Below, in pieces: positions 169 through 12,858 of a stretch of DNA of 12,968 nucleotides. Both the position numbers and the translations under genes were made by a program. The stretch lies in NCBI GenBank assembly GCA_947165805.1, contig CAMVBT010000033.1, positions 1-12,968 of the forward strand, written 5' to 3'. The notes below the pieces were generated by a model. The model saw only the letters and a list, made by a program, of their open reading frames with translations. It had not been told where the DNA came from and did not search any database. Origin of the DNA: an uncultured Clostridia bacterium. GTDB taxonomy: Bacteria; Bacillota; Clostridia; Oscillospirales; Ruminococcaceae. How positions within the stretch are numbered: the first letter of the stretch is position 1; each line of letters starts with the position of its first letter.

Positions 169-1566
169 TCATACATTGTTCATCTCCGTCAGGTTGCGCA
201 GCCACAGCTCGCGTTTGAGCCAGAAATGGAACACCACAATTTTCACTATATCGAGCAGCTTCACGCAAAGATACATCATCACGGGGCTTATGTCCGTGCA
301 GAGTCCGAGTATGAACACTAAAGGCATCATCACGGCAAGCGTTATCACCGAGTCCGTGCAGGCTCCCATTTTCGTGTCACCGCCCGCGCGCGAGACCGCT
401 ACCTGCGCGTTCAGATACACCCATACCGGCATGAAGAACGACATCAGTATGACCATGTCGCGGCATATACTGACCGCTCCCTCGCTCAGCCTGCCGAATA
501 CGAGCGGGACTATCAGAGTTGTCGCGAAGCCGAACAGCGCCATGAATACGCCGAACACCGCCCCTCCCGACAGCAGCCACGTTTTCTCCCTGCGGGCGCG
601 TTCGAGGTCGCCCTCGCCCAGCGTCCTGCCGAGTATGACTCCCGTAGCGGAGTAAATGCCTCCGAACGCCACAAAGAACAGATTGGCTATCGTAAAGCTC
701 GATGCCATGCCGGAAACGACCTCGGCTCCTCCCCTGCCGTTGTATATCGCTGTGGTCACTGTCTCCGACAGTATCCACACCATTTCACAGAACAGGACGA
801 GCGAGCCCTTTTTCAACATCTTCAAAAACAGCCTGCCGTTTACCGCGAACAGCTTCCTTATCCCTACCGCGAATTCGGGCTTCGTCTTTATGTATATCAC
901 CATAAATATGACAAATTCCAGTATGCGGGCTATCACGGTCGCGGCGGCGGCTCCGCGCACTCCGAGAGCCGGAAAGCCGAGATTGCCGTATATCAGCAGC
1001 CAGTTGAACAGCGTGTTCGTGAGCGTCGCGACTACCGTGACGACCAGCGGGGTCTTCACTCTGCCGAGATCGCGCAGGGAGCTCGCTATGCACATCGACA
1101 TCATCATCGGTATGCCCATGAAAAACATGATGTTTATATACTGCACCGCTTCGTCAAGTATCGGATCCGCCTCGGTGTTGCCTATGAGCATCAGGGAGAG
1201 CACCTCCCGCGGGAACACAAGGCACACCAGAATATACGGCACGAACGCCGCGAAGCTCATTATCAGCTTGAACAGGAACGCCTGCTTCATTCCGTCGGGG
1301 TCCTTGGCTCCGAAATACTGCGTCATGAATATCCCGCCCGCCATACATATCGCGTTCAGATAAACCATGAACACGAAAAGCACCTGCCCGGCCACGTTTA
1401 CGCCGGACATGGAAATATCCCCGAGCCCCGAGACCATGAAGTTGTCTATCAGTGACACAAGGCTCTGTATGAGCGACTGGAGCATTATCGGCACCGCAAG
1501 CGCGAGGGCTCCGCCGTAGAATTTCGCCGGGCCGAACAGTTTGCCCGGTTCTTTTGTCTTTATCAG
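169..1566 (-). CDS. MATE family multidrug efflux transporter, probable non-AUG start
   Basis: This is a 12-helix inner-membrane exporter of the MATE (MatE/NorM/DinF-like) family, which expels cationic drugs or metabolites using a Na+ or H+ gradient. Family hallmarks are the N-terminal block VPIMLQSLIQSLVSLIDNFM, repeated glycine-rich hydrophobic helices, and the mid-protein stretch on AYNGRGG-like and SGMASSF sequence characteristic of the second half-bundle. The first ATG, GTG or TTG in frame is GTG at 1494-1492 (441 aa). The frame, however, continues upstream into a typical MATE leader, reading KLFGPAKFYGGALALA directly before VPIM, as far as an AGGGAAGG ribosome site at 1580-1573. I therefore place the start at CTG 1566-1564, 6 nt after that site, giving 465 aa; ATT at 1569 and ATA at 1563 are alternatives. 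It is the first gene of the leftward unit, driven by the promoter at 1608-1636. Family is very likely; exact start and substrate are uncertain. Confidence 0.9.
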   Translation of the reverse strand: MIKTKEPGKLFGPAKFYGGALALAVPIMLQSLIQSLVSLIDNFMVSGLGDISMSGVNVAGQVLFVFMVYLNAICMAGGIFMTQYFGAKDPDGMKQAFLFKLIMSFAAFVPYILVCLVFPREVLSLMLIGNTEADPILDEAVQYINIMFFMGIPMMMSMCIASSLRDLGRVKTPLVVTVVATLTNTLFNWLLIYGNLGFPALGVRGAAAATVIARILEFVIFMVIYIKTKPEFAVGIRKLFAVNGRLFLKMLKKGSLVLFCEMVWILSETVTTAIYNGRGGAEVVSGMASSFTIANLFFVAFGGIYSATGVILGRTLGEGDLERARREKTWLLSGGAVFGVFMALFGFATTLIVPLVFGRLSEGAVSICRDMVILMSFFMPVWVYLNAQVAVSRAGGDTKMGACTDSVITLAVMMPLVFILGLCTDISPVMMYLCVKLLDIVKIVVFHFWLKRELWLRNLTEMNNV

Positions 1567-2117: not shown

Positions 2118-2948
2118 TTGACAGCACATTCCAAAAAATATACAGATCCCGGACCGAAATATGACTTCCGGCCGATAGAGTTCGACGGGATAGCCAACGC
2201 GCGGGAATTCTACGGGTACATAAACGGTGACGGACGACGGATAAGACCATGGTCGCTGATACGCTCCGGACATCTTCACGACGCGTCGCCGAAAGATACA
2301 GAGCTGCTTGCGGGAGCTTACAGGCTCGGCGCGATAATTGATCTGCGTTCGGAGGAAGAGATCGATGAAAAGCCGGATCATACCGTTCCCGAAGCGAAAT
2401 ACATACACCTGCCGGTGCTCGATGTGCCTTCGGGACATGATGCGGAAAACGAGCCCGACCCCGGCAGGCGGCTGCACTTCCTTGCTTCCGCGGGTCTTGC
2501 CGCCGACACGGAAATGTACACGAAGCTCATATCCGGAGACAGATCAAAGACGGCGTTCAGGCAGTTTTTCGGGCTCCTGCTCGAAAACGGCGGCAGGAGA
2601 GCCGTATTGTTCCACAGCGCGAGCGGCAAGGACCGCGCGGGTGTGGCGGCGGCGCTGCTGCTTGCCCTGCTCGGATTTGAAGATAAATATATAATTGCCG
2701 ATTATCTGTACACAAACACGGCCAACGGGAGCCTCATACGGCACGATGTGGCCGCGGTGACGGAATACACCTCCGATAAGAACGAGCTTGAACGTGTGCG
2801 GCGGATAAACGGCGTGCAGGCGTATCTGCTCGAATTCGTACTGTCGAAGATACGGATAGAATACGGCTCCGTGACAGCCTTCGCGAAGGAGTCATACGGG
2901 CTTTCCGATAATGATATTAAGGGTCTGAAGCGGATATATCTGAAATAA
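2118..2948 (+). CDS. Tyrosine-protein phosphatase-like protein (PF13350 type) with Cys-to-Ser in the active site
   Basis: The 276-residue protein follows the Y_phosphatase3 layout of bacterial and fungal tyrosine/dual-specificity phosphatases: an N-terminal RSGHL block (residues about 51-55), LRSEEE, HLPVL, then the P-loop region VLFHSASGKDRAGVAAALLL and a downstream ADYLYTN block. The family P-loop is normally HC-TAGKDRTG, with Cys as the nucleophile; here the codon is AGC (2616-2618), making Ser167, while Arg173 is kept. Family knowledge predicts no normal hydrolysis but retained phosphosubstrate binding. The TTG start at 2118 is chosen because AGGAG (2104-2108) stands 9 nt upstream; the ATG at 2111 is too close to that site and its frame ends after 18 codons. 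No signal peptide or membrane segment is visible, so it should be cytoplasmic. First gene of the operon; the next starts 22 nt after its stop. The fold call is strong; whether it has any activity is open. Confidence 0.88.
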   Translation: MTAHSKKYTDPGPKYDFRPIEFDGIANAREFYGYINGDGRRIRPWSLIRSGHLHDASPKDTELLAGAYRLGAIIDLRSEEEIDEKPDHTVPEAKYIHLPVLDVPSGHDAENEPDPGRRLHFLASAGLAADTEMYTKLISGDRSKTAFRQFFGLLLENGGRRAVLFHSASGKDRAGVAAALLLALLGFEDKYIIADYLYTNTANGSLIRHDVAAVTEYTSDKNELERVRRINGVQAYLLEFVLSKIRIEYGSVTAFAKESYGLSDNDIKGLKRIYLK

Positions 2949-2970
2949 CGCGGCAGAAGGAGAAAAATCT

Positions 2971-5895
2971 ATGAATAACAAACTCAAAGGTCTTGGCAGA
3001 TCTACACTTCGGACACTCGTGATAAGTGTCATTGTCATCATATTCTTTGTAGGTGTGATATTGTTCTATTACAATATGGTCTATACAAGAGAACGCGAGA
3101 TCATAATCAAGAACGGAGAAACATCTGCCATGCAGACTGTTTCCGAATTCAACGACTACCTTTCGACAAGCCTTGACGCAATAAAGATGACCGCGTACAC
3201 GCTTGACGGTATGCTTACCGACGGAAAGAGCGATGATAAGATACTCGATTATCTGGTGGGGCAGTCCAATGCCATAATGAACACCGTATTTGAGAACACA
3301 ACCGGAATGTACGGCTACATAAACGGTAAATTTGTCTCCGGCTCCAACTGGACGCCGCCCGACGATTTCGTAGCAACGGAGCGTCCGTGGTACATAAAGG
3401 CTATGAAAAGCGGCGGAGAGATCGCGACGATCGAGCCGTATCTTGATGCGCAGACAGGAAATATGATGATGGCGCTCGCAAAGACACTTTGCGACGGCAA
3501 GAGCGTTGTCGCGTTCGATATGACTCTGGAGAAGATCCAGTCAATAACCGAAGACGCGGTAAAATCCGATCAGGCGGATATCGAGTTTATCATCGACGGG
3601 AACGGTTCCGTCATAGCACATTCCGACAAGTCTGAGCTGAACAGTAACTACGGAAGCGAGAGCGGAACTCTCGGCGCGGCGATATATGAAGCGCTCGGTT
3701 CCGCGAAGGAAAACTATTTCGAGATCAGGCACGCTCCCTTCAGTTACATAGTTTATACAACAAGGATACAGAACGACTGGATATGCGTTTCCGTGAAGAA
3801 TACGACCAGCGTGTTCACGTCTATAACCTTTATCCTTCTCATCACTATCGCCGTCGTGATAGCGATAGTCACGACAGTCGCGGGTATCTCGGTCAATTCG
3901 GCAAGGCACAGCATCATTGCGGAGCGCCTGAGCAAGCAGCTTTCCTCGACCGCGGATATCTACATCTCGCTGCATGAGATAGATTTCGTGACTGATACAT
4001 TTGTGGAAGTCATGAACAGCAAGGTCGAAGCGTCGAAGATGATCGGCGAGACAAGAAACAACTGTCAGCAGATGATACGCACGATAATGACGAAATCCTC
4101 CGACGAATCGACGCGCAACAGCATACTCGATTTCGTGGATTTCACCAAGCTCGACGAGCGGCTGAAAGACCGCAACACGATAACGACGGAGTTTTTGAGC
4201 GCGGACGGCAAATGGCGCAAAGCGCGCTACATAGTCTCCGGAAGACTCGCCGACGGGCGCGTTTCAAACGCGATGTATCTTATCGAGGACATAGACGCGG
4301 AGAAACGCGACAGAGATAAGATGCAGGACACCGCAAAGCTGCTCACCGCGCAGCTCGGCTGTCTCGCAAACATCTACACCTCCGTTCACGATGTCGATAT
4401 CCCGCATGATTCGTTCACAATAATCAAGATGAACGATTCCGTTGTACAGACCGCGATAGGAAATGATGTACAGCACGCGCAGCAGGTCCTTCGCGGCGCG
4501 ATGACAAAGCTGACCGACAAAAGCTGTCTCAATGAAGTTCTGGAGTTCATTGAGTTTTCAAATGTCGAGAAAAATGTAGCCGAGACCGGCACCGCGACGA
4601 TCGAGTTCATCAATTCGAGAGGAAAATGGTGCAGAGGCAGATTTATCGTCGCGGAACGCACCGAGGACGGCGGGCTTTCGCACGTTATATGGGCGGTCGA
4701 GAATATCGACTCGGAGAAGCGGACCCGCGTCGAGCTCGCGGAGACCGCAAAGGAGCTCAACTACCGCATTTCCTCTATTGCCGACATTTATCTTACGGCA
4801 CATGAGATAGATCTTACGACCGATAAATTCATTGAGCTGAAGTCGAACAGCAGTCTTGTGAACGATATAATGTCCGAGTCACACGACAACGCGCGTGAAA
4901 CGCTCCATACGATAATGGAGTCCGTTACCGACGAGTCGTACCGTGACCGCGCGCTTGGATTCACCAATCTCGATACCATATCCAAACGCCTTCACAACAG
5001 AAACACCATATCGTTTGAGTTCCTGAACAAGGACAAACAGTGGCGCCGCGGAAGATTCGTCGCGTCAAGACGTGACGAGAGAGGCCGTCTCACCCACGTT
5101 TTGTGGCTGTCCGAGGACATAGACGCGGAGAAACAGAAGCGCGACAAGCTGATAGATATGTCCGAGCGCGCGGTCGCTGCGAGCGAAGCCAAATCGGCGT
5201 TCCTTTCGAGCATTTCCAACGGCATACGCACTCCTCTTAACTCCGTTCTTGAAACGAATGAGATCATACGCCGCGACAGCACCGACGGGCATATCCTCGA
5301 GTGTTCCGAGAAGATACGCAGAGACGGCGGCGAGCTTCTCGGCATGATAAACGATATCTTAGACTACTCGGCGCTCGAGTCCGGCAAGTTCGAGCTTGCA
5401 GATGCCGAATATGACCCGGCGGAGATGATCGGCGAACTTGCCGGAATGATACGGCAGAAAGCCGATGAAAAGCACCTGGCTTTCTATACGGACATAAAAG
5501 GCGAGCTCCCCGCAGCTCTTCGCGGCGACTGTCTGCGGATAAAGCAGATATTGACAAATCTGCTCACAAACGCGGTCAAGTACACGCAGAAGGGCTCGGT
5601 AACGCTGAGCGTGCGCTGTGAGAATATACCCGACGAGCCCGGATATGTTATGCTGAAAGCCGCGGTGATGGATACCGGTATCGGTATGAAGCACGAGGCT
5701 CTCGAACGGCTCATCTCCGATGACGGCGCCGGGAACGGCATAGGCATCGGCATTACAAAGAAGCTGCTGAAAATGATGGACTCCGGGCTTGAGACAGAGA
5801 GCGTGTATGACCTCGGCTCGAAGTTCTCGTTCGAGCTCAAACAGGCTGTGGCCGGCACCGGGACCGACAGCTCCGAAAAGGAGAAGAACGCATGA
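2971..5895 (+). CDS. Membrane Cache/PAS-repeat histidine kinase homologue lacking the phospho-acceptor His (pseudokinase)
   Basis: 974 residues. Order: short cytoplasmic start, TM1 (about 14-35), an extracytoplasmic double-Cache-like sensor (about 40-275, with ATERPWYIKAM typical of dCache), TM2 (about 283-306), three 138-residue PAS-like modules (320-733), then HisKA and HATPase regions. The H-box, normally FLSNMSHEIRTP, reads FLSSISNGIRTP: residue 750 is Asn (AAC, 5218-5220) and the following Glu is Gly. The N-box (TNLLTNAVKYT) and G1 (DTGIGM) remain, but the F-box and about ten residues of the ATP lid are missing and G2 reads GNGIGIGI. There is no receiver or HPt. Autophosphorylation in the usual way should be impossible. 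AAGGAGA (2957-2963) precedes the ATG; the stop overlaps the next start by 4 nt (ATGA). Its N-terminal 750 residues align with the next gene without net indels, so it may act as a sensory or inhibitory heterodimer partner; that role is inferred. Confidence 0.93.
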   Translation: MNNKLKGLGRSTLRTLVISVIVIIFFVGVILFYYNMVYTREREIIIKNGETSAMQTVSEFNDYLSTSLDAIKMTAYTLDGMLTDGKSDDKILDYLVGQSNAIMNTVFENTTGMYGYINGKFVSGSNWTPPDDFVATERPWYIKAMKSGGEIATIEPYLDAQTGNMMMALAKTLCDGKSVVAFDMTLEKIQSITEDAVKSDQADIEFIIDGNGSVIAHSDKSELNSNYGSESGTLGAAIYEALGSAKENYFEIRHAPFSYIVYTTRIQNDWICVSVKNTTSVFTSITFILLITIAVVIAIVTTVAGISVNSARHSIIAERLSKQLSSTADIYISLHEIDFVTDTFVEVMNSKVEASKMIGETRNNCQQMIRTIMTKSSDESTRNSILDFVDFTKLDERLKDRNTITTEFLSADGKWRKARYIVSGRLADGRVSNAMYLIEDIDAEKRDRDKMQDTAKLLTAQLGCLANIYTSVHDVDIPHDSFTIIKMNDSVVQTAIGNDVQHAQQVLRGAMTKLTDKSCLNEVLEFIEFSNVEKNVAETGTATIEFINSRGKWCRGRFIVAERTEDGGLSHVIWAVENIDSEKRTRVELAETAKELNYRISSIADIYLTAHEIDLTTDKFIELKSNSSLVNDIMSESHDNARETLHTIMESVTDESYRDRALGFTNLDTISKRLHNRNTISFEFLNKDKQWRRGRFVASRRDERGRLTHVLWLSEDIDAEKQKRDKLIDMSERAVAASEAKSAFLSSISNGIRTPLNSVLETNEIIRRDSTDGHILECSEKIRRDGGELLGMINDILDYSALESGKFELADAEYDPAEMIGELAGMIRQKADEKHLAFYTDIKGELPAALRGDCLRIKQILTNLLTNAVKYTQKGSVTLSVRCENIPDEPGYVMLKAAVMDTGIGMKHEALERLISDDGAGNGIGIGITKKLLKMMDSGLETESVYDLGSKFSFELKQAVAGTGTDSSEKEKNA
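3928..5169 (+). repeat. Three tandem 138-residue PAS-like modules within the pseudokinase
   Basis: Three copies begin at residues 320, 458 and 596, each opening with an IY..xHExD-type segment (DIYISLHEID, NIYTSVHDVD, DIYLTAHEID) and closing with an EDIDAEKR-type segment at residues 439, 577 and 715. Both markers repeat at exactly 138 residues. The inner strand pattern W+R.RFI......G...VLW and the closing helix are PAS-like. The ligand is unknown. The modules are diverged from each other, so the duplication is old. Confidence 0.85.
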
Positions 5896-8800
5896 ATAAC
5901 AGGATAACAGGGCTCAGCAGAACGACGCTGCGTACCCTCATAATAAGCATTCTCGTCATAGTTTTCTTTGTCGGTATAGTTATTCTGTACTATAATATGG
6001 TCTATGCGAGAGAGCGCGACAACATCATCTTAAAGGGTGAATTGTCCTCCGTCAGGGCTGCCGAGCAGTTCGACAAGTACCTCTCCACGAATATAGACGC
6101 GGTAAAGCTTTCGGCATACGGGCTTGATGAGCTGATACAGAATAAAAGACCGGACAGCGAGATACAGGACTATATCGTCGCGCAGTCCACTTCGATAAGG
6201 AACACCGTGCTCGAAAATATGACGGGGCTTTACGGATATATCAACGGACGCTTTTTCAGCGGTACCTACTGGGAGCCGCCCGAGGGTTATGTCGCGACGG
6301 AGCGCCCGTGGTACACAAAACCGATGGAGCACAGCGGCAATATAACCGTACTCGACCCTTACACCGATGTGCAGACCGGAAATACGATGCTTGCTATCGG
6401 AAAGGTGCTGTGTGACGGGAAAAGCGTCATTTCTCTCGATGTGTCGCTCGAACAGATACAGAAGATAACCGAGGAGGCCGTGGGGCCCGGACACGCCGAC
6501 TTTGAGATGATACTCAACGAACGCGGTGTTGTTGTGGCGCACTCGGACAAAGCGGAGATCGGCAAGGATTATACCGACGGGTCCGGAACGCTCGGCGCTA
6601 TGATAGTGGAAAATCTCGGCAGGACAAAGAACAACTATTTCGAGTTCGCGCTCGGCGATTCCCATTATATCGCCTATTACGCGGATATGCAGAACGACTG
6701 GCGCTGTGTCTCCGTAAAGGAAACGACGCGCGTATTCCTGTCGCTGACGGTGATACTCTGGCTGACGATAAGCTTTGTTCTCGCGATAGTATTTATAGTG
6801 GGAGCTATAATGGCATCTTCTGCGAAGCGCAGTCTCATGACCGAGCGCCTGAGCAAGCAGCTTTCCTCGACCGCGGATATATACATATCACTGCATGAGA
6901 TAAACTTTGTTACCGACACGTTCGTCGAGGTGCAGAACAACAAAGCGGAAGCCTCGCAGATGATCGGCGAGACGAGAAACAACTGTCAGCAGATGATACG
7001 CGCGATAATGACGAAGTTCTCCGATGAATCGACCCGCGCCGGCATACTTGATTTCGTGGATTTCTCGAAGCTCGACGCGCGTCTCAAAGACAGCAACACC
7101 ATAACCTCCGAGTTCTTAAGCGCGGACAAAAAATGGCGCAGAGCGCGTTACATCGTTTCGGGAAGGCTTGCCGACGGACGCGTCTCGAACGCCATGTATC
7201 TGATCGAGGATATTGACGCGGAGAAGCGCGACCGCGACACTGCCTTGGACGCGGTAAAGATGATGAACGAGCAGATCTCGTCCGTCGCGAACATCTATTT
7301 CTCGATGTACGACGTCGATCTCGAAAACGACAGGTTCCGCGAGGTCAAGACCCACGTCACGAACATCGGGCAGCTCAACACCGAATACATAGACAATGCT
7401 CAGGCTGCCACGCTCGCGATCGTCGAAAAGATGACCAACCCGATATCGAGACAGGCTATGAGCGAGTTCATCGACTTTTCCACGCTTGACGCGAGACTGC
7501 GGGACTCCAATACCGTCACCGAGGAATTTTTAAGCAGCGATGATATCTGGTGCAGAGCGAGATTTGTCATCGCGAAGTGCGGGGACGACGGCACTATCGA
7601 GCACGTTCTGTGGCTCGTCGAGAGCATAGACGAGGAAAAGAGAAAGCGCGACAAGCTCGCCGAAGCCGCCGAAACGCTGAATTACCGCATCTCGTCCATT
7701 TCCAACATCTACATGACCGCGCATGAGCTTGATCTGCCGACCGACACCTTCACCGAGATAAAAGCGGACAGCAAGTATGTCGCCGATCTTGTTGACGAGA
7801 GCAATATACACGCGCAGGCGACCATAAAGCACGTTATGGAGAATGTCTGCGACCCGTCGTGCGTTGACGAGGTTATAAGATTTATCGATCTTTCGACGCT
7901 CGAACGCCGCATGAAACGCGTTAATACCATCACTATCGAATATATGAACAAGGAAAAGCTGTGGAGACGCGGACGCTTCGTCGCGTCGAGGCGTGACGGA
8001 AAAGGAAGGCTCCTGCGCGCTCTGTGGCTCACCGAGGATATCAACGACGAAAAGGCGGAGCGTGACAAGCTCGTCGATCTGTCCGAGCGCGCTATAGCGG
8101 CGAGTGAAGCGAAATCCTCGTTCCTGTCGAATATGTCGCATGAGATAAGAACCCCTATCAACGCAGTGCTCGGAATGAACGAGATGATACTGCGCGAGTG
8201 CGACGACAAGAATATCCTCGCTTACTCCGAGAGCATCAGAACGGCGGGCTCGACGCTTCTCGGGCTTGTCAACGATATACTTGACTTCTCGAAGATAGAA
8301 GCCGGCAAAATGGAGATAATCCCCGTTGACTACGACCTGTCGAGCGTGATAAACGACCTTGTCAATATGATACAGACAAAGGCGGACAGCAAGGGGCTGG
8401 AGCTCGTGCTTGAAATAAGCAGGACAGTCCCGAAGCTGCTCCACGGCGACGAGGTGCGCATAAAGCAGGTGATAACGAATATACTCACAAATGCCGTGAA
8501 GTACACCGAGAAGGGCTCCGTCACATTCTGCATAGACTATGAAAAGATACCCGATGAGCCGGACAGCGTGATGCTGAATATCGCGGTCAAGGATACCGGT
8601 ATCGGCATAAAGAAGGAGGATATGAATAAGCTGTTCTCCGAGTTCGACCGTATCGAGGAAGAACGCAACCGCAAGGTCGAGGGTACGGGGCTTGGAATGA
8701 GCATCACAAAGCAGCTGCTCGAAATGATGGATTCGCAGCTTGAAGTGGAGAGCATCTACGAGCTTGGTTCAAAATTCTCGTTCAGCCTGAAACAGCGTGT

Positions 8801-9926
8801 GGTAAAGTGGGATGAGCTCGGTGACTATGAAGCTGCTTACAAGGCTTCTCTCGGCAAGCGAAAGAAGTATCATGAGACATTCCACGCTCCCGACGCGCAG
8901 GTGCTTATCGTCGATGATACGCCGATGAACCTGACAGTATTCATAAGTCTGCTCAAACAGACAGGCATACAGATAGATACAGCAAACAGCGGAGATGAGG
9001 GGCTTGCGATGATGCAGGACAAGAAATACGACATCATCTTCCTCGACCACATGATGCCCGGAAAGGACGGCATAGAGACGCTTCACGAGATGCGGGCGCT
9101 GGAAAAAAACCCGAACCTGAAAACTCCGGCGGTGTGCCTTACCGCGAACGCGATATCGGGCGCGCGCGAACAGTACCTCGCGGCGGGCTTCGACGATTAT
9201 CTCACAAAGCCCATAGACTCCGCGAAGCTCGAGGAAATGCTGATCGCTTACCTGCCGCAGGAGCTCATACAGTATCCGGACAGCACCGCGGAAACGGAGA
9301 GTGCCGATGACGGTATGATATTCGGCGACGAGCCGGGGCTGCCGAAGTTCATCTACGACATCGGCGAGATCGACACCGAGGCGGGAGTTGTGAACTGCGG
9401 CTCGGTCGAGGGCTATCTCTCCGCGCTGAACACCTACGCGGGAATGATAAACGATCACGCCGACGAGACCGAGAAATTCTGGCAGGCGGGCGACCTTCAG
9501 AACGCGACGATAAAGATACACGCGATGAAGAGCACCTCCCGCATCATCGGAGCTCTTGAGATAGGAGAGCTTGCACAGGAGCTCGAGCTTGCCGGAAAAG
9601 CGGGAGACAAGGACAAGGTAGGCGCGCGGATCGGCGAGCTGCTGGCAAGGTGCAGAAAGCTCGGCGAGCAGTTAAAGCCGCTTATCGGCGACAAAGCGGA
9701 GGAAGAAGATGACTCCGGCAAAACGCCGATATCGCAGGACGAGCTGAACGAAGCCTACTCGCTCATAAAGGAAGCGCTCGAATATCTGCAGTTCGACAAT
9801 GTGAACGAGATAGCGGAGAGCTTCAGGGACTACAGGATACCCGAGGCGGAAAAGGAACGTGTCGGAAAGATCATTGCGGCGGTCGAAAACCTCGATTACG
9901 ACAAGCTGCCGGAAATACTTGAATAA
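5892..9926 (+). CDS. Hybrid sensor histidine kinase: dCache, three PAS-like modules, HisKA, HATPase, receiver, HPt
   Basis: 1344 residues. It repeats the layout of the preceding gene: TM1 (about 14-35), extracytoplasmic dCache-like domain, TM2 (about 283-306), three 138-residue modules (from 320, 458 and 596). Here the H-box is intact, FLSNMSHEIRTP, with His750. The HATPase keeps its N-box (TNILTNAVKYT), G1 (DTGIG), F-box (LFSEFDRI) and G2 (GTGLGM). A receiver follows (about 1003-1120) with acidic pair D1008/D1009, phospho-acceptor D1052 in FLDHMMPGKDG, T1084 and K1106. An HPt domain follows with H1210 in IHAMKSTSRIIG, then a helical C-terminal domain of about 75 residues as often found at the end of clostridial hybrid kinases. 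This is a complete internal phosphorelay ending in an HPt that can pass phosphate to a separate receiver, most simply the protein encoded 15 nt downstream. ATG start with AAGGAG at 5878-5883, overlapping the previous stop (translational coupling likely). The signal sensed is unknown. Confidence 0.95.
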   Translation: MNNRITGLSRTTLRTLIISILVIVFFVGIVILYYNMVYARERDNIILKGELSSVRAAEQFDKYLSTNIDAVKLSAYGLDELIQNKRPDSEIQDYIVAQSTSIRNTVLENMTGLYGYINGRFFSGTYWEPPEGYVATERPWYTKPMEHSGNITVLDPYTDVQTGNTMLAIGKVLCDGKSVISLDVSLEQIQKITEEAVGPGHADFEMILNERGVVVAHSDKAEIGKDYTDGSGTLGAMIVENLGRTKNNYFEFALGDSHYIAYYADMQNDWRCVSVKETTRVFLSLTVILWLTISFVLAIVFIVGAIMASSAKRSLMTERLSKQLSSTADIYISLHEINFVTDTFVEVQNNKAEASQMIGETRNNCQQMIRAIMTKFSDESTRAGILDFVDFSKLDARLKDSNTITSEFLSADKKWRRARYIVSGRLADGRVSNAMYLIEDIDAEKRDRDTALDAVKMMNEQISSVANIYFSMYDVDLENDRFREVKTHVTNIGQLNTEYIDNAQAATLAIVEKMTNPISRQAMSEFIDFSTLDARLRDSNTVTEEFLSSDDIWCRARFVIAKCGDDGTIEHVLWLVESIDEEKRKRDKLAEAAETLNYRISSISNIYMTAHELDLPTDTFTEIKADSKYVADLVDESNIHAQATIKHVMENVCDPSCVDEVIRFIDLSTLERRMKRVNTITIEYMNKEKLWRRGRFVASRRDGKGRLLRALWLTEDINDEKAERDKLVDLSERAIAASEAKSSFLSNMSHEIRTPINAVLGMNEMILRECDDKNILAYSESIRTAGSTLLGLVNDILDFSKIEAGKMEIIPVDYDLSSVINDLVNMIQTKADSKGLELVLEISRTVPKLLHGDEVRIKQVITNILTNAVKYTEKGSVTFCIDYEKIPDEPDSVMLNIAVKDTGIGIKKEDMNKLFSEFDRIEEERNRKVEGTGLGMSITKQLLEMMDSQLEVESIYELGSKFSFSLKQRVVKWDELGDYEAAYKASLGKRKKYHETFHAPDAQVLIVDDTPMNLTVFISLLKQTGIQIDTANSGDEGLAMMQDKKYDIIFLDHMMPGKDGIETLHEMRALEKNPNLKTPAVCLTANAISGAREQYLAAGFDDYLTKPIDSAKLEEMLIAYLPQELIQYPDSTAETESADDGMIFGDEPGLPKFIYDIGEIDTEAGVVNCGSVEGYLSALNTYAGMINDHADETEKFWQAGDLQNATIKIHAMKSTSRIIGALEIGELAQELELAGKAGDKDKVGARIGELLARCRKLGEQLKPLIGDKAEEEDDSGKTPISQDELNEAYSLIKEALEYLQFDNVNEIAESFRDYRIPEAEKERVGKIIAAVENLDYDKLPEILE
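6849..8090 (+). repeat. Three tandem 138-residue PAS-like modules within the hybrid kinase
   Basis: The modules start at residues 320, 458 and 596, the same residue numbers as in the upstream paralogue. Module 1 is the most conserved between the two genes: 38 identical bases occur at 3922-3959 and 6843-6880. Modules match their positional partner in the other gene better than their neighbours in the same protein, so the triplication came before the gene duplication. Confidence 0.85.
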
Positions 9927-9941
9927 GGAAGGATAAAAATT

Positions 9942-10763
9942 ATGGCTGAAAACGGAATACCGGATATCCTGATCATCAGTCAGGGCTCGGCGTTTATGGT
10001 GAACTCGCTCGAAAACAATCTTAAACGGGAGGGTCTGTACATTACGAAATGCGAGCCGACAGTAAGGGATGTCGACGAGCATATCGACGAAAAGGATATG
10101 GTCATACTGTTCGCGGGGGAGTATATAACCGGATCGGGCTCGGCATTATCGTATATTTCCTCCAAGTGCGCGAACGAATGTATAAATTTCTGCGTAGTCG
10201 GATATCCGAACGAGATACAGGAGATCAAGAAGGCGGTCGGTGTCGAGCGCATAACCGCGGAGTTCGCGCGCCCGTTCGATATGAAGGATTTCTGCGCAAA
10301 GATAAAGGCAATTGCCAACGGCGAGACTGTAAAAGTCTCTGACGACGCGCAGAACTATACCGTGAACAACAGGAAAAGACACTCTATCCTGCTCTGCGAC
10401 GACGATATGATGTTCCTCAAAATGGTGCAGGAATGGCTGAAAGACGCGTACAACATCACGATAGTCAAGACCGGACTCATGGCGGTGCCGTTCGCGCTGA
10501 ACCACCAGCCCGATCTTATCCTGCTCGACTTCGAGATGCCCGTGATGAACGGCCCGAAGGTGCTCGAAGCCCTGCGCGGGGACAAGAAAACGGCGCAGAT
10601 ACCGGTCGTGTTCCTCACGGGCCATTCCGACAGGGACAGCGTTATGGAGGTCATGAAGCTGCGCCCGCAGGGGTACCTGCTCAAATCCACGAAGAAAGAG
10701 GACATTATCGCGTCGGTCGATAATTTCTTCGCTACGGGTCAGTGGAAAAATGTACAGACATAA
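9942..10763 (+). CDS. Response regulator with a degenerate and an intact receiver domain, no output domain
   Basis: 273 residues in two halves. The C-terminal receiver (about 147-268) is complete: acidic cluster D153-D155 (CDDD), phospho-acceptor D196 in LLDFEMPVMNG, T226 in FLTGHSD and K248 in YLLKS. The N-terminal half (about 7-130) has the same alternating strand-helix pattern, but the acidic pocket is SQG (13-15), the phospho-acceptor position is Phe57 (VILFAGEY) and the Lys position is Arg110 (FARPFD). It is thus a pseudo-receiver that cannot be phosphorylated in the normal way. There is no DNA-binding or enzymatic output, so signalling must go through protein contacts or by serving as a phosphate carrier or sink. 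GGAAGGA (9927-9933) precedes the ATG; the gap to the hybrid kinase is 15 nt, making it the natural acceptor of that kinase's HPt (inference). Confidence 0.9.
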   Translation: MAENGIPDILIISQGSAFMVNSLENNLKREGLYITKCEPTVRDVDEHIDEKDMVILFAGEYITGSGSALSYISSKCANECINFCVVGYPNEIQEIKKAVGVERITAEFARPFDMKDFCAKIKAIANGETVKVSDDAQNYTVNNRKRHSILLCDDDMMFLKMVQEWLKDAYNITIVKTGLMAVPFALNHQPDLILLDFEMPVMNGPKVLEALRGDKKTAQIPVVFLTGHSDRDSVMEVMKLRPQGYLLKSTKKEDIIASVDNFFATGQWKNVQT

Positions 10764-10781
10764 AAACAAAGGGAGCGGACA

Positions 10782-12179
10782 ATGGGAGAATTGATAGCGC
10801 GCATAGGCGTACTTGAATTTGTGCAGGCATTGATAGAGCTGTGGAACGGCGTATTCCTGCTTATAATGATATTTTCGCTGATGCTGGGCAAGCATACCCA
10901 CAGGGTCAGCAGCAGGATAAAGATACCGCTCACGAACGAGATACTGACATTCTTTATCGCTCTGTTCCTGTACAACATATTCAGCGTCATAGTGATAGTT
11001 ACCGAGGGCGCGGAGCCGGGGATATGGCGGAACGTCAAGATCGTGTCCCTCTTCGGGTATTACGCGGCCGGCGCGTTTCAGACACTGCTTTTCCTGCAAT
11101 TGATAAAGAAACATATTGCGGAGAAGAACAATATGAAAAAGCTCGGATACGCGGTGACGGCTGTGCAGCTTTTGCAGGTGCCGTGTATCGTACTGCTTGC
11201 GGCAACGCCGTTCACGGGCGCGCTCTATTACCTCGACGAGGAGAATTATTACGACCGCGGAGAGCTTTTCTGGGTGTGGTATTATACCACGATAGTGTCC
11301 TTCGTGTTCATTATCGCGGTGATCGCGCTGAACTGGAAAACGCTTGACGGCTTTCTGAAAAAGATCGTCATAACCGCTGCCGTGATCCCGCTGATCGCGT
11401 TCATTTTCAACTTTGTCCATTCCGAAATAAGCTGGAACAATATCTCGGCATCGCTTTTAGCGATGATAATATATATGCTGTATGAACAGAACAGGACTTC
11501 CGTTACCGTGCAGGCTGTTACCGAGCTTTCGGAAACGAAGCGGCAGCTCGCCGAAAGAGAGCTTGCGCTCGAACAGAGCAAGAACGAGACTCTCATGGCG
11601 CAGATACAGCCGCATTTCATCAACAATTCGCTAATGGCGATACGCTCGCAGTGCGTGAATTATCCGGAGGTCTATGAGAGCATAACGAACTTTTCGCTTT
11701 ATCTGCGGTCGAACTTCGAGGCGCTCGGGAATACGCAGAAGATAGGCTTTGACCGCGAAATGGAGTCGATAGAAGCATATCTCGCGCTCGAGCAGCAGAA
11801 TTTCGGCGACAGGCTTAAAGTTGAGTATGACATCGGGTACGACAGCTTCTCCATACCGCCGCTGATAGTTCAGCCGCTTGTCGAGAACGCCGTGCGGCAC
11901 GGTATAGCGACCCGCGAAAAGGGCGGCACTGTACGGATAAAGACAAGATACGATGATGGCGTGATAACCGTTGAGGTGACCGACGAGGGCAGAGGAAGCA
12001 GCAATATAACAACTCAGCAGAGCGCACGCAGGGGTATCGGCATCGAGAATGTCCGTGCGCGTCTGAAATATATGAATAACGGGGAGCTTGAGATAATACC
12101 GAACGAGAACGGTACTACGGCAAGGCTCACATTCACGGTGCGGGGAGGTATGGATAATGGTGACGGTATCGGTCGATGA
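10782..12179 (+). CDS. LytS-like membrane sensor histidine kinase (7-TM, His_kinase/HATPase_c)
   Basis: 465 residues. About seven hydrophobic segments fill residues 10-235, with no large extracellular domain, then a helical linker rich in Glu, Lys and Arg (about 240-272) and a PF06580-type kinase core. The phospho-acceptor is His278 in AQIQPHFINNSL. N369 lies in the N-box VQPLVENAVRHG, followed by a G1-like DEGRGS and G2-like RRGIGIENV. Family members autophosphorylate and pass phosphate to a single cognate regulator. GGGAG (10771-10775) stands 6 nt before the ATG. The gene starts 18 nt after the double-receiver gene and its last 23 nt overlap the next regulator gene, which is therefore its probable partner. 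The 7-TM sensor is not a family I can name; it may sense a membrane or hydrophobic cue. Confidence 0.92.
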   Translation: MGELIARIGVLEFVQALIELWNGVFLLIMIFSLMLGKHTHRVSSRIKIPLTNEILTFFIALFLYNIFSVIVIVTEGAEPGIWRNVKIVSLFGYYAAGAFQTLLFLQLIKKHIAEKNNMKKLGYAVTAVQLLQVPCIVLLAATPFTGALYYLDEENYYDRGELFWVWYYTTIVSFVFIIAVIALNWKTLDGFLKKIVITAAVIPLIAFIFNFVHSEISWNNISASLLAMIIYMLYEQNRTSVTVQAVTELSETKRQLAERELALEQSKNETLMAQIQPHFINNSLMAIRSQCVNYPEVYESITNFSLYLRSNFEALGNTQKIGFDREMESIEAYLALEQQNFGDRLKVEYDIGYDSFSIPPLIVQPLVENAVRHGIATREKGGTVRIKTRYDDGVITVEVTDEGRGSSNITTQQSARRGIGIENVRARLKYMNNGELEIIPNENGTTARLTFTVRGGMDNGDGIGR

Positions 12180-12858
12180 CCAGAAGGGCGCGGTCGAGCT
12201 GATGAAGCTGATGCTCACGCGCATAGACCCCGACGGCACGCATCTGGCCGCGACAAGCATGGAGGAAGCGTCGGAGCTCATAACCGAAGAGACCGAGGTA
12301 GCCTTTCTTGATATAGAGATGCCCGGAATGGACGGGATAGACGGAGCGGCAGGCTTGCAGAAGCGTTTCCCGCGGCTTAACATCATTTTCGTGACAGGGC
12401 ATCCCGAATACGCTCTGCGCTCTTATGATGTGTCGGCAAGCGCGTTTTTGCAGAAGCCTATCTATGAGCACGATATAGAGCGTGCTCTGAAAAGGCTGCG
12501 CGTACCGCTGAAAAAGAAAAAAAGCCCGCTTACAGTGCGGTGCAGGCCGTTCGCAATGTTTGTGAACGGCGGGAGCTTTACGTTCAGGCGGCAGAAAACG
12601 AACGAGCTGTTTGCGTATCTTGTTTACAGAAACGGGTCGTTCTGCACCACGGGAGAAGCTCTCGGGATACTGTATGACGGCGATCCCGACAAAGACGCAG
12701 CGTTTCGTCAGCTTACGATGGATATGCGGGACTGCCTTGCCGAGATCGGAGCGCAGTCACTCATTGTCAAGAAGTACGGCATGATCGGCATAGATATGGA
12801 GCGCCTCACCGTTGAGGGAAGGCTGAAGGATATTTCCGACGAATTCGGCTGGCTGTAA
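12157..12858 (+). CDS. SAPR/SARP-type two-component response regulator
   Basis: 233 residues. The N-terminal receiver (about 2-118) has D7/D8, phospho-acceptor D52 in FLDIEMPGMDG, T80 (FVTGHP) and K100 (LQKPI). A lysine-rich linker leads to a C-terminal winged-helix-like domain (about 128-225) reading RPFAMFVNG, FRRQKTNELFAYLVYRNG and DMRDCLAEIGA. That is the pattern of the SARP-like output of the COG3947 'SAPR family' regulators, a DNA-binding domain related to OmpR and the Streptomyces antibiotic regulators. No BTAD extension follows. The ATG at 12157 is chosen because GGGGAGG (12142-12148) stands 8 nt upstream; the ATG at 12150 belongs to the kinase frame. Overlap of 23 nt with the LytS-like kinase implies coupled translation and pairing. 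Possible targets include its own promoter, which carries 11-bp direct repeats. Confidence 0.9.
   Translation: MVTVSVDDQKGAVELMKLMLTRIDPDGTHLAATSMEEASELITEETEVAFLDIEMPGMDGIDGAAGLQKRFPRLNIIFVTGHPEYALRSYDVSASAFLQKPIYEHDIERALKRLRVPLKKKKSPLTVRCRPFAMFVNGGSFTFRRQKTNELFAYLVYRNGSFCTTGEALGILYDGDPDKDAAFRQLTMDMRDCLAEIGAQSLIVKKYGMIGIDMERLTVEGRLKDISDEFGWL

Follow-up and report, generated by a model that had tools for sequence, protein, structure and literature searches.

A clostridial operon that may join two signalling modules, each with its own conserved, catalytically dead partner

Six signalling genes that follow one another on a single strand in an uncultured, gut-type Clostridia bacterium would together make up two signalling modules, each with its own catalytically dead and conserved partner, a reading to which we give a probability of about 0.5. 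Module A would consist of a LytS-type kinase, a REC-bearing regulator and a PF13350 pseudophosphatase, and Module B of an intact hybrid kinase (HK2) and its regulator (RR), the pseudokinase HK1 standing next to them. The arrangement itself is real and conserved. Loss of the catalytic residues and its conservation, gene linkage and purifying selection are observed in the sequences, as described below, and all of these sequences are metagenome-assembled or database contigs. A sequencing or assembly error behind the substitutions was rejected, because the same residue states recur in other contigs and database proteins.

The window, that is the whole stretch of 12,968 nucleotides that was analyzed, is part of contig 33 of a genome that is only 80% complete, and its features are summarized in Table 1. 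In the ORF list the six signalling genes are tightly packed, all on the plus strand from 2118 to 12858, and the gaps between them are in order 22, −4, 15, 18 and −23 nt (negative values are overlaps). A preliminary description of this DNA had ended the run of genes at 10763; it continues in the same direction to 12858 and takes in the LytS-type kinase and the last regulator. The three catalytic substitutions named there were all seen on translation, each in an open reading frame, namely Ser167 in the phosphatase (codon AGC, 2616-2618), Asn750 in HK1 (AAC, 5218-5220) and Phe57 in RR (TTC, 10110-10112), and so were the intact residues H750, D1052 and H1210 of HK2 (codons 8139-8141, 9045-9047 and 9519-9521) and D196 of RR. 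Homologues of the neighbouring MATE gene, with 75-80% identity, also occur in three RR-family loci (L120, L122, L125) and near two Cys-bearing phosphatases (L169, L175), and their longer ORFs suggest that the true start of the window gene lies upstream of 1494.

Table 1. Features of the window (coordinates in nucleotides, lengths in residues).
Feature	Coordinates	Strand	Remarks
PF13350 (Y_phosphatase3) pseudophosphatase, 276 aa	2118..2948	+	TTG start after AAGGAG; Ser167 for catalytic Cys
HK1, 974 aa: TM, Cache-like, TM, three PAS-fold repeats, degenerate HisKA, HATPase	2971..5895	+
HK1 residues 317-735: three tandem ~140-aa PAS-fold repeats	3919..5175	+	without Pfam match above cut-off
HK2, 1344 aa, intact hybrid kinase; sensor layout as HK1; HATPase_c, REC, HPt	5892..9926	+
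HK2, three tandem ~140-aa PAS-fold repeats	6840..8096		without Pfam match above cut-off
RR, 273 aa: aspartate-less receiver-like half and intact REC	9942..10763	+
LytS-type kinase, 465 aa: PF06580 and HATPase_c	10782..12179	+	QIQPHFINN intact
Response regulator, 233 aa: REC with C-terminal ~110 aa	12157..12858	+	FLDIEMPG intact; C-terminal part without Pfam match
MATE transporter gene	169..1494	divergent	outside the operon

The preliminary description had united the three substitutions in a single assembly; among relatives, the modules as well as the losses are found apart. In the stretches fetched, G228, G197 and G253 have a pseudophosphatase with a LytS/LytR pair but no kinase cassette, and in G218 an RR remnant alone accompanies the two; a pseudokinase lies beside a hybrid kinase without a phosphatase in G254, G225 and G252; and in G243 and G220 the phosphatase copies sit beside kinases that all keep their His. 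A single co-evolved triple was therefore rejected, and the separate histories of the three losses point to an operon put together from two modules that each bring a dead partner. The original proposal, one assembly of six proteins whose binding-only modules all tune a single phosphorelay, would fit the tight, co-directional packing. It would also fit three pairs of phosphatase and HK1 database entries that agree in the length of their longest contig (75270, which holds a near twin of the window, 81440 and 5645), so that the phosphatase-HK1 arrangement may recur; the phosphatases P0002-P0006 are 78-80% identical, and their link to HK1 is drawn from the equal longest contigs of the database entries. 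Set against the two modules that stand apart in G228, G197, G253, G254 and G225, and against the His-bearing kinases of G243 and G220, we consider this proposal unlikely.

Evidence for a separate Module A comes from the distribution of the missing cysteine. The window protein matches Y_phosphatase3 over its whole length (Pfam; residues 20-275, E 1e-52, 179.9 bits vs a cut-off of 22.2), and its P-loop region HSASGKDRAG reads HSASGKDR in place of the HCx5R motif, with Cys, of active phosphatases. Two sequence relatives of known structure in PF13350, PtpB (1ywf, E 1e-7) and 8dhi (E 6e-14), share the P-loop region with the window protein and carry HC..GKDR, whereas the window protein and its LytS-linked kin are without the Cys. 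Among the 71 genomes searched, close LytS genes were found at 11 places in the genus (E ≤ 7e-119; the next match was at 2e-49). Seven of the 11 have a full-length phosphatase that precedes or follows LytS in the same direction, always without the Cys: the residue is Ser in the window, G228, G218 and G243, Asp in G197 and G253, and Gly in G220. At one further place (L160, G226:C5) the phosphatase copy is broken and spread over two frames, its P-loop also reading Ser, and at the remaining three the phosphatase is absent (G242, G252 and G243:C85, where the contig ends). Away from close LytS genes, Cys is present at 22 of 23 genus places (L143 was unreadable), at 22 of 29 family loci (seven unreadable) and in all 20 P-loops from 19 loci of the order, two of these loci also being in the family set.

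In the window the kinase cassette sits between the phosphatase and LytS, and it is the close LytS, not the cassette, that the Cys-less phosphatase tracks in these gene neighbourhoods. A distant LytS homologue (28% and 31%, respectively) lies within about 2.5 kb of two Cys-bearing phosphatases (L153, L183), thus proximity to any LytS-type kinase is insufficient. Outside the genus no phosphatase was found near the LytS/regulator pair in nine of the nine loci fetched (two on short contigs; G158:C18 was left out), and together with its absence at two or three of the 11 genus loci this indicates that the phosphatase is dispensable. Given that the LytS-linked copies are Cys-less and the others Cys-bearing, it seems that the phosphatase came to the LytS pair inside this genus and that the Cys was lost there too.

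The Cys may have been lost once or twice. Among 25 database matches, P0001-P0008 have Ser, P0001 being the window's own protein, and the 17 more distant ones (P0009-P0025) all have Cys. A set picked from database and genus copies for being Cys-less (A2) holds 11 Ser, two Asp and one Gly, that is 14 of 14 rows without Cys by choice, and about 13 independent ones given that P0007 and L150 are nearly identical. In a 74-row tree these rows, the window duplicate and the Cys-bearing L132 and L133 form a fully supported group of 17. Without the P-loop columns, a tree of 73 rows placed L132/L133 with the eight rows of the window's group, 10 rows in all (support 96/85), and on this free tree at least two changes between Cys and non-Cys are needed and two suffice; a single Cys-less clade gave a p-AU of 0.536 and a likelihood even 0.74 higher. 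The placement of L132 and L133 in the tree favours two losses, or one loss and a regain, and one clade is also compatible. With the linked pseudophosphatases falling into two groups through one or two losses, the seven-of-seven contrast represents few independent events either way.

We propose that the pseudophosphatase is most likely a cytosolic, binding-only partner of the LytS/regulator pair (an adaptor, a brake or a phospho-ligand trap) that would dephosphorylate nothing, much in the manner of STYX. STYX is without the catalytic Cys, and Cys-to-Ser mutants of phosphatases are used as substrate traps. STYX and other animal pseudophosphatases are phosphatase-like proteins that regulate by binding, and pseudophosphatases can trap substrates (PMC10211241). 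STYX is eukaryotic and acts on ERK without a two-component partner, whereas the window protein is bacterial and linked to LytS. A narrower reading, in which the Ser form senses a phospho-compound or phosphoprotein by binding it and signals its level to LytS, could draw on this trapping and on the P-loop with its Arg, as the window protein and nine of the 11 Ser rows of A2 retain GKDR. We regard it as doubtful: both Asp rows of A2, the LytS-linked copies G197 and G253, also carry Glu for the P-loop Arg and would hardly hold phosphate, which makes it probable that not all members need phosphate binding for the role. The tie between Cys loss and a close LytS locus names a definite partner that can be tested for a pseudophosphatase in bacteria.

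Regarding the rest of Module A, the kinase carries the QxxPHF motif expected of a PF06580 kinase in a LytS/LytR pair, and a simple hydropathy scan indicated about five hydrophobic segments. No Pfam match to a LytTR domain was found in the C-terminal 112 residues of the last regulator, where a very diverged domain is possible; by eye the domain (12520-12855) resembles a winged-helix output, which it may be. Among eight neighbours checked there was no common target of the LytS module. Outside the genus, two LytS/regulator pairs (L195, L199) adjoin very large genes, one for a product of 2139 aa that matches LRR_5 and, weakly, dockerin, the other cut at 1882 aa and bearing List_Bact repeats.

Turning to Module B, HK2 has everything expected of an active hybrid kinase, namely the His, the N, G1 and G2 boxes, the REC Asp and the HPt His, its HPt scoring 24.4 bits, just below the Pfam cut-off of 24.6. 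Pfam finds HisKA and HATPase_c in both HK1 and HK2, and the Cache matches of both are under the cut-offs. HK1 is, judged from its sequence, a degenerate paralogue with the same membrane, Cache-like and PAS layout as HK2. It had been described as a kinase with one lesion and an otherwise kept signature; the Asn in place of the acceptor His of an active HisKA kinase stands, and beyond it the Glu after the acceptor (NGIRT vs HEIRT) is gone, the ATP lid is cut to nine residues vs 19 in HK2 with loss of the F-box, and no Pfam match to a REC or HPt was found. What HK1 keeps in the window is the N-box, the G1 box and the T at acceptor+4.

The family to which HK1 belongs was placed in a quick tree of 79 kinases, in which both kinases of the window and eight rows from the loci were combined with the 69 best of 434 database matches (120 listed). 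HK1 falls in a supported clade of ten, in which the acceptor position is N, R and Q three times each and H once (P0152), REC is absent throughout and the lids have 9-12 residues. Among His-bearing REC kinases the lid has 19 residues in 46 of 51 and 12-14 in the other five, and these five together with P0152 mean that a short lid alone is no proof of a dead kinase; as the short lid is common to all ten rows of the clade, lid shortening probably preceded or accompanied the loss of the acceptor. Across the tree 22 kinases are His-less through at least nine changes, and the family is thereby a series well suited to the question of what role a dead kinase has when a live paralogue stands next to it. 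REC is absent in 20 of these 22 vs six of the 57 with His, the kinases having been chosen by likeness to HK1 and not as a random sample; with 4.9 pairs of His and REC losses going the same way, 0.5 the opposite way and 3.6 undecided (median p 0.125; eight REC changes), an independent association of the two losses is suggestive only. A pseudokinase adjoins an intact paralogue in five of the seven fetched loci that have one (the window, L111, L116, L118 and L161) and is alone in L162 and L166.

The PAS fold of the repeats in both kinases is predicted from an AF2 model (pLDDT 76, pTM 0.36) and a Foldseek match to the tandem PAS of FixL (E 2.8e-12). Between the window and L116 (G254), HK1 is 83% identical in the PAS part, 73% in DHp and 57% in CA, and HK2 84, 97 and 89%, respectively, which suggests that in HK1 the sensor is held while the kinase core drifts. 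The first PAS repeat (residues 317-455) is unusually alike in HK1 and HK2 of the window, with 83-88% protein and 79-85% DNA identity, vs 29-59% protein identity in the other parts; the same is seen in L116 and L161, not in L118, and either gene conversion or shared constraint would account for it. In the kinase L163 (G254:C13) the PAS-repeat region is about twice as long (812 aa).

From these features we infer the protein contacts, the direction of regulation and the phosphate path of Module B: phosphate would most likely pass from H750 through D1052 and H1210 of HK2 to D196 of RR, and HK1 would most likely tune HK2, either in a hetero-oligomer or by binding phosphorylated RR, as DivL does with CckA. 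In other kinases, complementing halves are established to phosphorylate one another in trans. HK1 might in the same way be an active half, its ATP-binding domain phosphorylating H750 of HK2 in trans within a heterodimer, or else a pure phosphatase acting on a receiver, and the retained boxes and acceptor+4 T as well as the five His-bearing REC kinases with short lids would agree with this. With a lid of nine residues, no F-box, and a CA domain that is the least conserved part of the protein, we find such activity improbable, a shade more so than the two alternatives above.

A tuning role for HK1 has a model in DivL of Caulobacter, which has several PAS domains and Tyr550 for the acceptor His and controls the intact hybrid kinase CckA (PMC4211667). 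HK1 is likewise a kinase homologue with several PAS domains and without the acceptor His, its control of HK2 being our suggestion. DivL retains its N, G1, F and G2 boxes as well as a conserved Tyr, which is Ala in one species, whereas HK1 has a shortened lid and an acceptor that varies in its clade (N/R/Q/H) in place of a DivL-type conserved Tyr; unlike DivL, HK1 is the tandem neighbour of the kinase that it resembles. The ChrS pseudokinase with HrrS, and RetS with GacS, suggest that a dead or regulatory kinase may hetero-oligomerize with an active one (PMC9491836). The ChrS pseudokinase arose by a frameshift during laboratory evolution, and no heterodimer of its own was detected in that work, whereas HK1 belongs to a natural, conserved lineage.

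The third loss, in RR, is older than the sampled family. Pfam finds Response_reg only at 149-259, in the second half, which is intact and whose D153, D154, D196, T226 and K248 are nearly fixed in relatives; no output domain was found in RR. In an alignment of 121 rows, built from the 120 best of 300 matches, position 57 is Asp in none of the 118 readable rows (Tyr in 62, Phe in 51, His in two, Leu, Ile and Val in one each; three rows are gapped), and the Asp loss is thus, by these sequences, ancestral to the sampled RR family. At the best 80 of at least 568 loci in named genomes RR was readable at 73, with Asp57 at none and D196 at all; a REC-HPt kinase adjoins it on the same strand at 52 of the 73, and of the other 21 loci six start less than 1.5 kb from the end of a contig. 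The dead receiver is therefore the rule in a widespread pair of two genes, and it is fixed in the sampled family across records named as Lachnospiraceae, Selenomonadales and Synergistaceae. One genus copy of RR (L126) has Gly at 196.

The first half of RR had been called a receiver with its fold signature otherwise kept. Fold prediction agrees with this for the topology: the AF2 model (pLDDT 82) has five beta-alpha units in residues 8-125, and Foldseek, run on the pdb and pdb_via libraries, overlays both halves on PleD, ShkA and RcsC over 264-295 columns and two domains, with low TM-scores (0.37-0.46 of the query), re-alignment with VIA-align giving matches to the second half alone. For the sequence it is too strong, other landmark positions being changed as well. 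Profile comparison gave no proof of receiver ancestry, Pfam giving no match to this half even at E 5 and hhalign a probability of 6% (P 0.0018) vs the intact REC of the same family and 0.5% vs the REC of HK2. The receiver fold of the N-terminal half is thus a matter of fold prediction. In ShkA a pseudo-receiver inhibits the kinase until c-di-GMP binds, according to a 2025 review, which calls the activation mechanisms of bacterial pseudo-receivers a mystery (PMC12632262). Unlike ShkA, RcsC and PleD, RR is a free protein, as no kinase or output domain was found in it, and its N-terminal half would be a fixed binding or docking domain that gives an output-less regulator its partner.

Purifying selection acts on all six genes, as the preliminary description had argued for the three substituted ones. 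Pairwise codon fits gave omega values of 0.16 for the phosphatase (vs G228), 0.115, 0.083 and 0.077 for HK1, 0.089 for HK2, 0.078 for RR, 0.17 for LytS and 0.09 for the last regulator, each far from 1 and approximate given the high divergence (t 1.1-2.3); the fit for the HK1 CA domain between the window and L116 ran to t = 24 and was excluded. The values of 0.08-0.16 in the substituted genes make simple decay unlikely, and losses conserved under selection suggest that the dead phosphatase-, kinase- and receiver-like proteins act by binding rather than catalysis. The losses persist in relatives beside intact relay components, and no close relative intact at all three genes was seen, P0152 with its His being a partial exception. 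The frames of the window are open. A second partial exception is the broken phosphatase of G226:C5, which together with the 75-codon 3′ RR remnant next to the phosphatase at L158 (G218:C73) shows signs of module loss; a recent pseudogene is disfavoured by omega. That all these proteins are relaxed duplicates slowly decaying on their way out, which these two loci and the faster change of DHp and CA in HK1 might suggest, is very improbable, as omega is low, frames are open, the Cys or His is missing in relatives of 62-88% identity too, a single His apart, and ten HK1 rows have the short lid in common.

Pseudo-histidine kinases and pseudo-receivers are known kinds that are poorly explained; HisKA domains without His make up 0.9% (722 of 76,471) in the 2025 review (PMC12632262). 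Least expected is the pseudophosphatase linked to LytS, of which we found no report in searches of an open-access library. As a more detailed and more tentative version of the main reading, which we hold at somewhat below even odds, a Cys-based phosphatase may have turned, perhaps twice, into a conserved non-catalytic partner of a LytS pair and so be what STYX would look like in bacterial two-component signalling, with the residue (Ser, Asp or Gly) free to vary after the loss, and in places it would have been joined to a pseudokinase-tuned phosphorelay, which brings three kinds of dead enzyme into one operon. Among the kinase loci we also observed two tandem kinases that both bear His (L113:3432-10845), with HisKA regions 99% identical in protein and 91% in DNA and N-termini at 17-21%.
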